DNA of 64,000 nucleotides from Fusobacteriaceae bacterium. GTDB taxonomy: Bacteria > Fusobacteriota > Fusobacteriia > Fusobacteriales > Fusobacteriaceae. A model generated the notes under the pieces. The model saw only the letters and a list, made by a program, of their open reading frames with translations, had not been told where the DNA came from and ran no database searches. Positions within the stretch are counted from its first letter, which is position 1. Every line of letters begins with the position of its first letter. The position numbers were made by a program, and so were the translations under genes. Below are positions 61,282-64,000 of this stretch, piece after piece. The DNA lies in the NCBI GenBank assembly GCA_017984315.1, contig JAGNZR010000002.1:28650-92649 (forward strand). Direction: 5' to 3'.

Positions 61282-61327
61282 AATAAGGTCTTAATCCTAC
61301 TTTTTTTAGGATTAAGACCTTATTTTA
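61282..61327. terminator. Bidirectional terminator after the 81-residue gene and batD
   Basis: A perfect 18-bp stem (61282-61299 with 61307-61324) holds AAGGTCTTAATCCTA and its complement, followed by TTA on the plus strand and by A/U bases on the minus strand. Confidence 0.88.
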
Positions 61328-63103
61328 TTATATTTTATCAACTTCTTTCAATTTATTTATAACCTCTTCCATATCAAAAAGTTCCCCTTTAAACCTCCAC
61401 TTTTCCAAAGTTGAATTTACCTCTTTTAAAGTAATATTAGGCAATTTTATCTCTGAGTGAAGTTTAGGGTTAAAATTATACTTTTCTATCATGTATTTTG
61501 AGTATGCTTCATAAAATTCATCATAATTTTTAGATTTTTTTAATTCAGTGTAGATATCTTTGTTTTTAAAAAATATTATTTTTTTATTTTCCAATAAAAT
61601 TTTAGCTAAAATTGACCCTCCAACTAAAACAACTCCACTTAACAAAATCCAAAAATAACTAGTATTTTTATGATTTGTTTTGTCAACTAACTCTATTTTT
61701 TGATCAATTTGTTCTTCTTTTACTTTATCCTCTTGTACTTTATTATCAGTATTTAAACCTTCAGTGTTTTGATTTACTATACTATCTTTAATATTAAATT
61801 TTTTTTCATTTATCCTTTTTATTTCATACTTTTCTGTTTTAGGATTAAAATAGTTTAATTCAAATTGTCCTATTGTAACTTCTCCACTTTTTTTAGGTAT
61901 AAAAGCTATTTCATACTCTTTTTCTGTATAATATTCTCCAGACTTTATCTCTTCTTTAGAGGATTTTAAAGTTTCAAACATATTAAATGCTTCATTAGAT
62001 GGATAGTTAAGCTTATCTAAACTATCTAAATTCACATTCCCTGATACTCTTACAGTCATTAAAATTGTTTTTCCAACTTCTAAATCATTTTCATCCCATT
62101 TATACTCTACTTTTGGATTTCCAACTACACCTTGAAAATTTTCTGGTTTCCCCTCTTCTGGTAATGGTTTGATATTTAAAGTTACTTTCTCAGCTGGAAT
62201 TAAAAAAGTTGAATTTGAGACAACTTCTGCACTACTTGAGTAGAAGCTGTGAGTACCTGATAAATTACCTTGTATTACCCCTCTGTACAACATTATATCT
62301 ATAATTTTTTTCCCATCAGATTCATACTCTTTTACTTGTGGTTTTTTACTTTTAGATATAGGGGTGTAATCAGTTGATGAAAGGTTTTCAAATTTAGGTC
62401 TATCTTTTCCAGTTACACTTCTAAATAATCCAGAAGCTCTAAAATTTTCTTCATAAACTACTTTTTCCCCTAAATATATCTCTTTATCTTTAATTTTTTT
62501 TACTATTTTAAAATCACTTCTATCCCCTAAATAACTTTCAGTTGAAGCTATCTTTTGGATTGGTTTTTGAACTTGTTGATTTTGATCTATTGTTTGCTGC
62601 TGCTGTTGATATTGCTGTTGTTGGTATTGTTGTTGTGATTGCTGATTTTGGGATAGCATAACTCCTTGTAACAGAGCAATTGCTGCATTTTGAAGTTGGT
62701 TATGAGAGGAGTTATATCCACTACTATACCCTGTACTATAGCTATTATTATAACCACTTGAATAGCTAGAGGGCCTTCTAACGTCTATTTGTATTGTATT
62801 GGAATAATCATCTCTAGTCCTAACTCTTAATCTATATCTTCCAATTTGTAGAGGTCTTAATACAATTATCTCACCTCTACCACTTCTCAAAGAGTACCTA
62901 TCTAAGATATCAAAATTTTCAATCCCGTCTATTCGATAACTCGTTCTTGAAGTATCTAAAAACTCTACCGCTATCCTTATCGGTTCATTTACTCTAGCGT
63001 AATTTGTTTCACTTCTTAAAATAACCCTACTAAAAGATAAAAGATATATACTAAAAAATAATAATAATATTAATCCTTTTTTCCCCAATTTTCCACCTAC
63101 CAT
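61328..63103 (-). CDS. batD: BatD-like aerotolerance membrane protein (full-length copy)
   Basis: The 591-residue protein has a signal peptide (LILLLFFSIYLLSFSR), an N-terminal beta domain, a Ser/Tyr/Asn-rich then Gln-rich linker (about 110-185), and BatD/oxygen-tolerance domains up to about residue 450. One TM helix near 495-515 (YFWILLSGVVLVGGSILAKI) and a cytoplasmic tail follow. Bat proteins protect anaerobes from oxygen stress by an uncertain mechanism. The start is doubtful: the good GTG start of its upstream copy has become GGG, so ATG 63103 or TTG 63088 must be used. It ends the operon. Confidence 0.8.
   Translation of the reverse strand: MVGGKLGKKGLILLLFFSIYLLSFSRVILRSETNYARVNEPIRIAVEFLDTSRTSYRIDGIENFDILDRYSLRSGRGEIIVLRPLQIGRYRLRVRTRDDYSNTIQIDVRRPSSYSSGYNNSYSTGYSSGYNSSHNQLQNAAIALLQGVMLSQNQQSQQQYQQQQYQQQQQTIDQNQQVQKPIQKIASTESYLGDRSDFKIVKKIKDKEIYLGEKVVYEENFRASGLFRSVTGKDRPKFENLSSTDYTPISKSKKPQVKEYESDGKKIIDIMLYRGVIQGNLSGTHSFYSSSAEVVSNSTFLIPAEKVTLNIKPLPEEGKPENFQGVVGNPKVEYKWDENDLEVGKTILMTVRVSGNVNLDSLDKLNYPSNEAFNMFETLKSSKEEIKSGEYYTEKEYEIAFIPKKSGEVTIGQFELNYFNPKTEKYEIKRINEKKFNIKDSIVNQNTEGLNTDNKVQEDKVKEEQIDQKIELVDKTNHKNTSYFWILLSGVVLVGGSILAKILLENKKIIFFKNKDIYTELKKSKNYDEFYEAYSKYMIEKYNFNPKLHSEIKLPNITLKEVNSTLEKWRFKGELFDMEEVINKLKEVDKI
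62560..62650 (-). repeat. Polyglutamine-coding repeat within batD
   Basis: CAA/CAG-rich codons encode QSQQQYQQQQYQQQQQ and a flanking IDQNQQ. It forms the linker after the N-terminal domain and is a candidate for length variation by slipped replication. Confidence 0.8.
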
Positions 63104-63113
63104 TCATTCGGAC

Positions 63114-63629
63114 TTAATTTTCAGTTTGCATTACTCCTTGTAATAATCCAATTGCTATATTTTGAAATTGATTACCAGAATTTCCATAATCGTTTTCATC
63201 CCATCTATTATAGCTGTTGTTATAATCTCTTGAATAACCATTGTTGTAACTATTATTATAACTATTGCTATAACTATTGCCATAACTATTGTTGTAACTA
63301 TTTGGATAATGATAACCCCTTTTAACATCTATTCGTAGTGTATTTGAATATTCATTTTTAGTTCTAACTCTTAATTTGCATCTTCCTGTTTCCAAAGGTC
63401 TCAGTACAAGCATCTCCCCTCTACCATTTCTCAAAGAGTATCTGTCTAAGATATCAAAATTTTCAATCCCGTCTATTCTATAATGTTTTCTTGAACTATC
63501 TAAAAACTCTATAGCTATTCTTATAGGTTCGTCTACTCTAGCATAGCTTGATTCACTCCTTAAAATAACCCTACTAAAAGATAAAAAATATATACTAAAA
63601 AATAATACCATTATTAAACTTTTTTTCAC
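63114..63629 (-). CDS. Truncated BatD paralog (N-terminal domain duplication)
   Basis: This 171-residue product (from GTG 63629) repeats the signal peptide, N-terminal beta domain and SYN-rich linker of BatD. It then stops after LLQGVMQTEN, where full BatD continues LLQGVMLSQNQQ. It would be a secreted or periplasmic protein without the TM anchor. GTG at 63629 has a fine AGGAGG site. The ATG-containing upstream frame overlaps that site. It lies between the batC-like gene and batD in one transcript. It could be a functional soluble partner or a decaying copy. Confidence 0.78.
   Translation of the reverse strand: MKKSLIMVLFFSIYFLSFSRVILRSESSYARVDEPIRIAIEFLDSSRKHYRIDGIENFDILDRYSLRNGRGEMLVLRPLETGRCKLRVRTKNEYSNTLRIDVKRGYHYPNSYNNSYGNSYSNSYNNSYNNGYSRDYNNSYNRWDENDYGNSGNQFQNIAIGLLQGVMQTEN
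63249..63300 (-). repeat. 12-bp tandem repeats coding NSY-type tetrapeptides
   Basis: At least four 12-base units beginning AACTATT (63249, 63261, 63273, 63285) and a partial fifth (63297) lie in tandem. They encode a four-residue N/S/Y pattern in the linker of the truncated BatD paralog. Units differ in the last few bases. Confidence 0.85.
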
Positions 63630-63640
63630 AAATTTTCCTC

Positions 63641-64000
63641 CTACCATTCATTTGAACTCTCTTTTTTTTCTTCTAAATTTATTTTTTCATTATTTTTAAA
63701 AGCTTGTTTTTCATTCCCTTCTAATCTTTTTAAAATATAATCAATTTCCTGTTTTTTATTATCTTTCTCTCCTGTAGAACCTTGAGAGCCACTACTTTGC
63801 CCACCTTGATTATTTTGGTTTCCTTGACTACCTTGCCCACCTTGATTTTGATTTTCTTGATTTTCTAACATTTTTTTTACTATTTCATAATTTTTTTTAA
63901 CATTTAAATCATCTTTTATAGATAACTGTTCTTTATATAATTTTAAACTCTCTGTTAAATTTTTATTTTTACTCTCATTATTTATACTTTCAGATATTTT
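63641..64000 (-). CDS. BatC-like TPR protein, C-terminal part (N-terminus beyond the window)
   Basis: The frame is open without a stop from the right edge to TAG at 63641, so this is the end of a larger gene. It first has a helical stretch (LTESLKLYKEQLSIKDDLNVKKNYEIVKKML) that looks like the last TPR units. A Gln/Gly/Asn-rich linker follows, then KQEIDYILKRLEGNEKQAFKNNE, the short C-terminal motif typical of BatC-type proteins. An internal ATG at 63871 is not the likely start. The stop is directly before the AGGAGG of the next gene. Confidence 0.72.
   Translation of the reverse strand, partial: KISESINNESKNKNLTESLKLYKEQLSIKDDLNVKKNYEIVKKMLENQENQNQGGQGSQGNQNNQGGQSSGSQGSTGEKDNKKQEIDYILKRLEGNEKQAFKNNEKINLEEKKESSNEW

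Follow-up and report, generated by a model that had tools for sequence, protein, structure and literature searches.

The locus analysed here raises the question of what a partial tandem duplication of batD leaves behind: two genes with start signals of their own or, as the earlier note proposed, a short gene that took the original signals from the full-length one. The window (the whole stretch of 64,000 nucleotides that was analysed) comes from a draft genome of 1.47 Mb (78% complete, 79 contigs) of an uncultured fusobacterium, the one genome in which the tandem was seen; its genus counts three species in the comparison set, the genus-mates being G001 and G002. The minus strand carries, in order, batA (cut by the contig end), batB, batC, the short batD, the full batD and an 18-pair terminator-like repeat (Table 1). 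The labels batA, batB and batC follow gene order and sequence reading, with a Pfam family match for BatD alone. The full-length copy matches PF13584 with 39.4 bits against a cut-off of 24.1 and, lying after batA-, batB- and batC-like genes, it occupies the place of BatD, the fourth gene of the batABCD aerotolerance operon, an order also read in G002. The locus differs from the usual batABCD operon by the truncated N-domain duplicate ahead of the full gene. The terminator-like repeat, scored on both strands, is common to a convergent 84-aa frame. Promoter-like matches in the region equalled the shuffled expectation (24 versus 24.9) and no internal promoter is claimed. As a side observation, the batC-like gene of genus-mate G002 (L034:1482-2306, minus strand) contains a long Asn-Gln-Asp-Lys repeat tract, across which two other frames are also open.

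Table 1. Features of the batD tandem and its surroundings (positions in the window)
Feature	Position	Strand	Remarks
batC-like gene, 3′ part	63641..64000	-	whole gene 218 aa, L032:7291-7947; TAG 63641-63643 overlaps the short-copy Shine-Dalgarno
Short batD copy	63114..63647	-	177 codons counted from the overlapping ATG; Shine-Dalgarno-supported start GTG 63629-63627
AGGAGG Shine-Dalgarno, short copy	63637..63642	-	
batC remnant (last five codons and stop), marking the duplication junction	63097..63114	-	carried along by the duplication
AGGTGG Shine-Dalgarno, full-length batD	63093..63098	-	AGGTG portion matches the anti-Shine-Dalgarno
TTG, most likely start of full-length batD	63086..63088	-	
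Full-length batD	61328..63103	-	591 codons if counted from the overlapping ATG and 586 from TTG; PF13584 at residues 336-428
Terminator-like inverted repeat, 18 pairs	61282..61324	-	L032:4932-4974, just 3′ of batD

The tandem partial duplication of batD described in the earlier note was confirmed. Spaced 544 bp apart, the copies align without gaps over 300 nt (79%), and their protein match (E about 1e-60) is far beyond chance. Over 125 alignable codons (110 from the N-domain and 15 from the tail, with the gapped linker excluded) nucleotide identity reached 84%. The short product is a homologue of the BatD N-terminal domain, being 71% identical to its own BatD and up to 43% identical to those of relatives. 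Both copies share, as the note had stated, a signal-like N-terminus, a beta domain and a Ser/Tyr/Asn linker in this order, to which we add an NQxQNxAIxLLQGVM stretch. The claim that AATGAATGGTAGG stands ahead of both and that the duplicated unit includes the end of batC also held: the 18 nt between the copies read AGT CCG AAT GAA TGG TAG, where the true batC end reads AGT TCA AAT GAA TGG TAG. The duplicated unit thus began inside batC. As the spacing of 544 bp cannot be divided by three, the copies sit in different reading frames and read-through would therefore not fuse them.

The Ser/Tyr/Asn linkers themselves (62516-62773 and 63167-63317, minus strand) differ in make-up: that of the short copy consists of 12-bp spaced repeats and that of the long copy has an added Gln-rich run. 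They look like the outcome of slippage-driven expansion.

We then examined the age of the duplication. The short copy (E ≤ 0.001) matched 39 of 61 family genomes, its source included, and each of the 38 matching genomes among the 60 others did so at one place (in G014, a contig-edge piece); the remaining 22 of the 61 are uninformative since the domain diverges fast. With full BatD as query, 42 of the 98 genomes from the phylum (those of the family among them) gave a match, the other 56 being uninformative for the same reason, and the second rows were further pieces of the same gene save for contig-edge pieces (G002 C124 and G014) and, at another place in G045, a weak match. The scan of other fusobacterial loci revealed no additional BatD-like frame. 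A short gene conserved among distant fusobacteria, which would contradict a duplication within this lineage, was likewise looked for in these genomes and not found. In the loci of all 29 relatives, full batD comes directly after the end of batC. As a single-protein search of genome contigs full BatD retrieved no relative, and a smaller BatD alignment (A3) used as search profile gave 20 loci. In phmmer searches BatD also weakly matched an opposite-strand frame in L072 (1.4e-6) and a hydrolase-like frame in L032 (4.3e-6), both of which were set aside as chance or low complexity.

In a FastTree phylogeny of 22 sequences, the two copies formed one clade with support 1.000. This tree used 22 of the 23 rows of alignment A1, which covers 21 of the 29 relatives' loci; L013 was dropped as too short. 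Identity to the genus-mates was 34-36%. In both copies a hairpin of the N-domain is shortened and the Ser/Tyr/Asn linker is inserted, neither of which is seen in the BatD of the 22 aligned relatives; in the full-length copy this insert spans about 85 residues (111-196) and has Ser/Tyr/Asn, LLQGVM and Gln-rich parts. The duplication thus looks young and lineage-specific, and because the copies form one clade and share a hairpin and linker not seen in the 22 relatives, it probably took place after the split from G001 and G002. The branch of the long copy was the longer one (0.22 versus 0.08 for the short copy) and, at 27 differing columns, the short copy agreed with more relatives at 15 and the long copy at 7, with 5 ties. 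Counted relative by relative, however, unique differences were close (for instance 5 versus 5 and 3 versus 3 for the two genus-mates), and faster evolution of one copy is not claimed.

It had been proposed that duplication placed a short soluble BatD under the original signals and that the real BatD lost its start codon and Shine-Dalgarno, and hence would be poorly made. As letters the contrast is correct: the short copy has AGGAGG followed by GTG, where the long copy reads GGTGG (within AGGTGG) and GGG in the corresponding columns. Nevertheless, one codon ahead of this GGG and behind AGGTG, the long copy carries an in-frame TTG, and the computed anti-Shine-Dalgarno pairing is the same, -10.2 kcal/mol, for AGGAGG-GTG of the short copy and AGGTG-TTG of the long one. 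Compared with AGGAGG, AGGTG pairs at a site three bases further on in the anti-Shine-Dalgarno; by our own count this offsets the one-codon shift of the start and leaves the aligned spacing equal. The overlapping upstream ATG pairs less well (-0.7 in the long copy and -4.6 in the short one); that of the long copy, in frame at 63103, has a counterpart in the short copy and in relative G002. Just ahead of full batD, TGGTAG or TGGTAA (the batC end) is found in 29 of 29 relatives, followed by AGGTG in 10, GGAG in 16 and neither in 3. Both genus-mates belong to the ten, which speaks against reading AGGTG as a damaged AGGAGG; AGGTG may instead be the older form of the signal.

Among the junctions of the 29 relatives none showed TTG as evident start. 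A rough start-picking script applied to the 44 window frames of at least 180 codons gave ATG in 40, GTG in 2 and TTG in 2, long batD being one of the latter, so that TTG starts are rare and perhaps not unique in the window. As a start codon, TTG tends to be weaker than GTG or ATG, and reduced translation of the long copy may thus occur. With equal pairing, AGGTG shared by both genus-mates and an intact frame of the full gene, we regard a loss of its signals as improbable. Of the earlier proposal, the position of a short BatD directly behind batC stands, and the loss of signals by the real BatD does not.

We then asked whether the short copy bears traces of selection. It contains neither a premature stop nor a frameshift. 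Between the copies, dN was 0.12 and dS 0.48 over the 125 codons, giving a dN/dS of 0.24 (bootstrap 0.14-0.44), and 0.27 for the 110-codon N-domain; these values, from one pairwise comparison averaging both branches, point to purifying selection on the short copy. Simulations of a neutral short copy beside a constrained long one produced median values of 0.64-0.73; all 900 runs stayed above 0.27, and about 99% or more of them contained a stop. Because neutral decay did not reproduce the low dN/dS, the short gene has probably been preserved over much of its existence. A functionless by-product of duplication whose decay is yet to come would fit a copy present in one genome only, truncated at a seemingly chance junction and devoid of an annotated domain, but it is unlikely given a dS that is already substantial together with a low dN/dS and an intact frame. 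An assembly artefact, conceivable in a draft genome, is very unlikely because the copies have diverged: they differ at 16% of aligned nucleotides, most often at third codon positions (18, 14 and 28 differences by position), their linkers carry in-frame indels, and a mis-joined repeat is not expected to show divergence shaped by selection.

Judged by its sequence, the short copy is a paralogue of the BatD N-domain and not a BatD, because only this domain is present; it had no Pfam match up to E 0.1, PF13584 included. An AlphaFold2 model from a 23-row alignment (mean pLDDT 70) showed a confident beta sandwich at residues about 27-110 behind an N-terminal helix, and a Ser/Tyr/Asn tail lacking confident structure (pLDDT under 50 from residue 117). 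Foldseek matches were generic Ig-like domains (filamin, PD-1 and others), uninformative on function. The long copy, read by eye, shows a signal-like N-terminus and a single hydrophobic segment (residues 482-504), ahead of which the short copy ends. From this reading and the model, the short gene most likely encodes an Ig-like BatD N-domain that is exported and soluble and bears a disordered Ser/Tyr/Asn tail.

We thus favour, with a probability of roughly 0.7, a lineage-specific partial duplication in which both genes have start signals and are under purifying selection and the short product is an exported N-domain. Probably after the split from the two genus-mates, a unit of about 544 bp comprising the last batC codons and the first part of batD was duplicated in tandem. 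The junction after the LLQGVM stretch of the linker supplied a stop, turning the upstream copy into a free-standing gene. From one operon message both genes would probably be translated, the short one from AGGAGG-GTG and the long one from AGGTG-TTG, and both would have remained under purifying selection. The short product, which we infer to be made, would then act next to full BatD in the Bat complex of the envelope, as an extra or alternative N-domain subunit.

A comparable arrangement exists in Muribaculaceae, where a 314-aa BatD-like frame (L083:2512-3453) lies directly upstream of full batD, so that here too the shorter BatD relative comes first. The pair was present in 2 of the 39 genomes around this record, the seed (G098) and G128. 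In contrast to the fusobacterial copy, the partial gene of G098 is about 27% identical to its BatD and matches residues 177-424, that is the middle part and not the N-domain. This pair is presumably an independent event, and additional partial BatD genes seem to have originated on more than one occasion. In titles and abstract openings of the literature on BatD, aerotolerance and Fusobacterium we found no batD duplication. According to its abstract, a 2012 paper on Leptospira biflexa describes the specific function of Bat proteins as lacking experimental demonstration (PMC3557215).

A more tentative idea, to which we give limited credence, is that the short gene encodes a soluble BatD N-domain, kept by selection, which competes with full BatD or supplements it in the Bat complex of the envelope, the GTG and TTG starts setting their ratio, and that a small regulatory subunit was thus born by partial duplication. 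Otherwise, the locus would represent an ordinary partial tandem gene duplication; if true, a BatD N-domain that is separated in nature and kept by selection would point to an ability of this domain to work independently of the membrane-anchored remainder of the protein.
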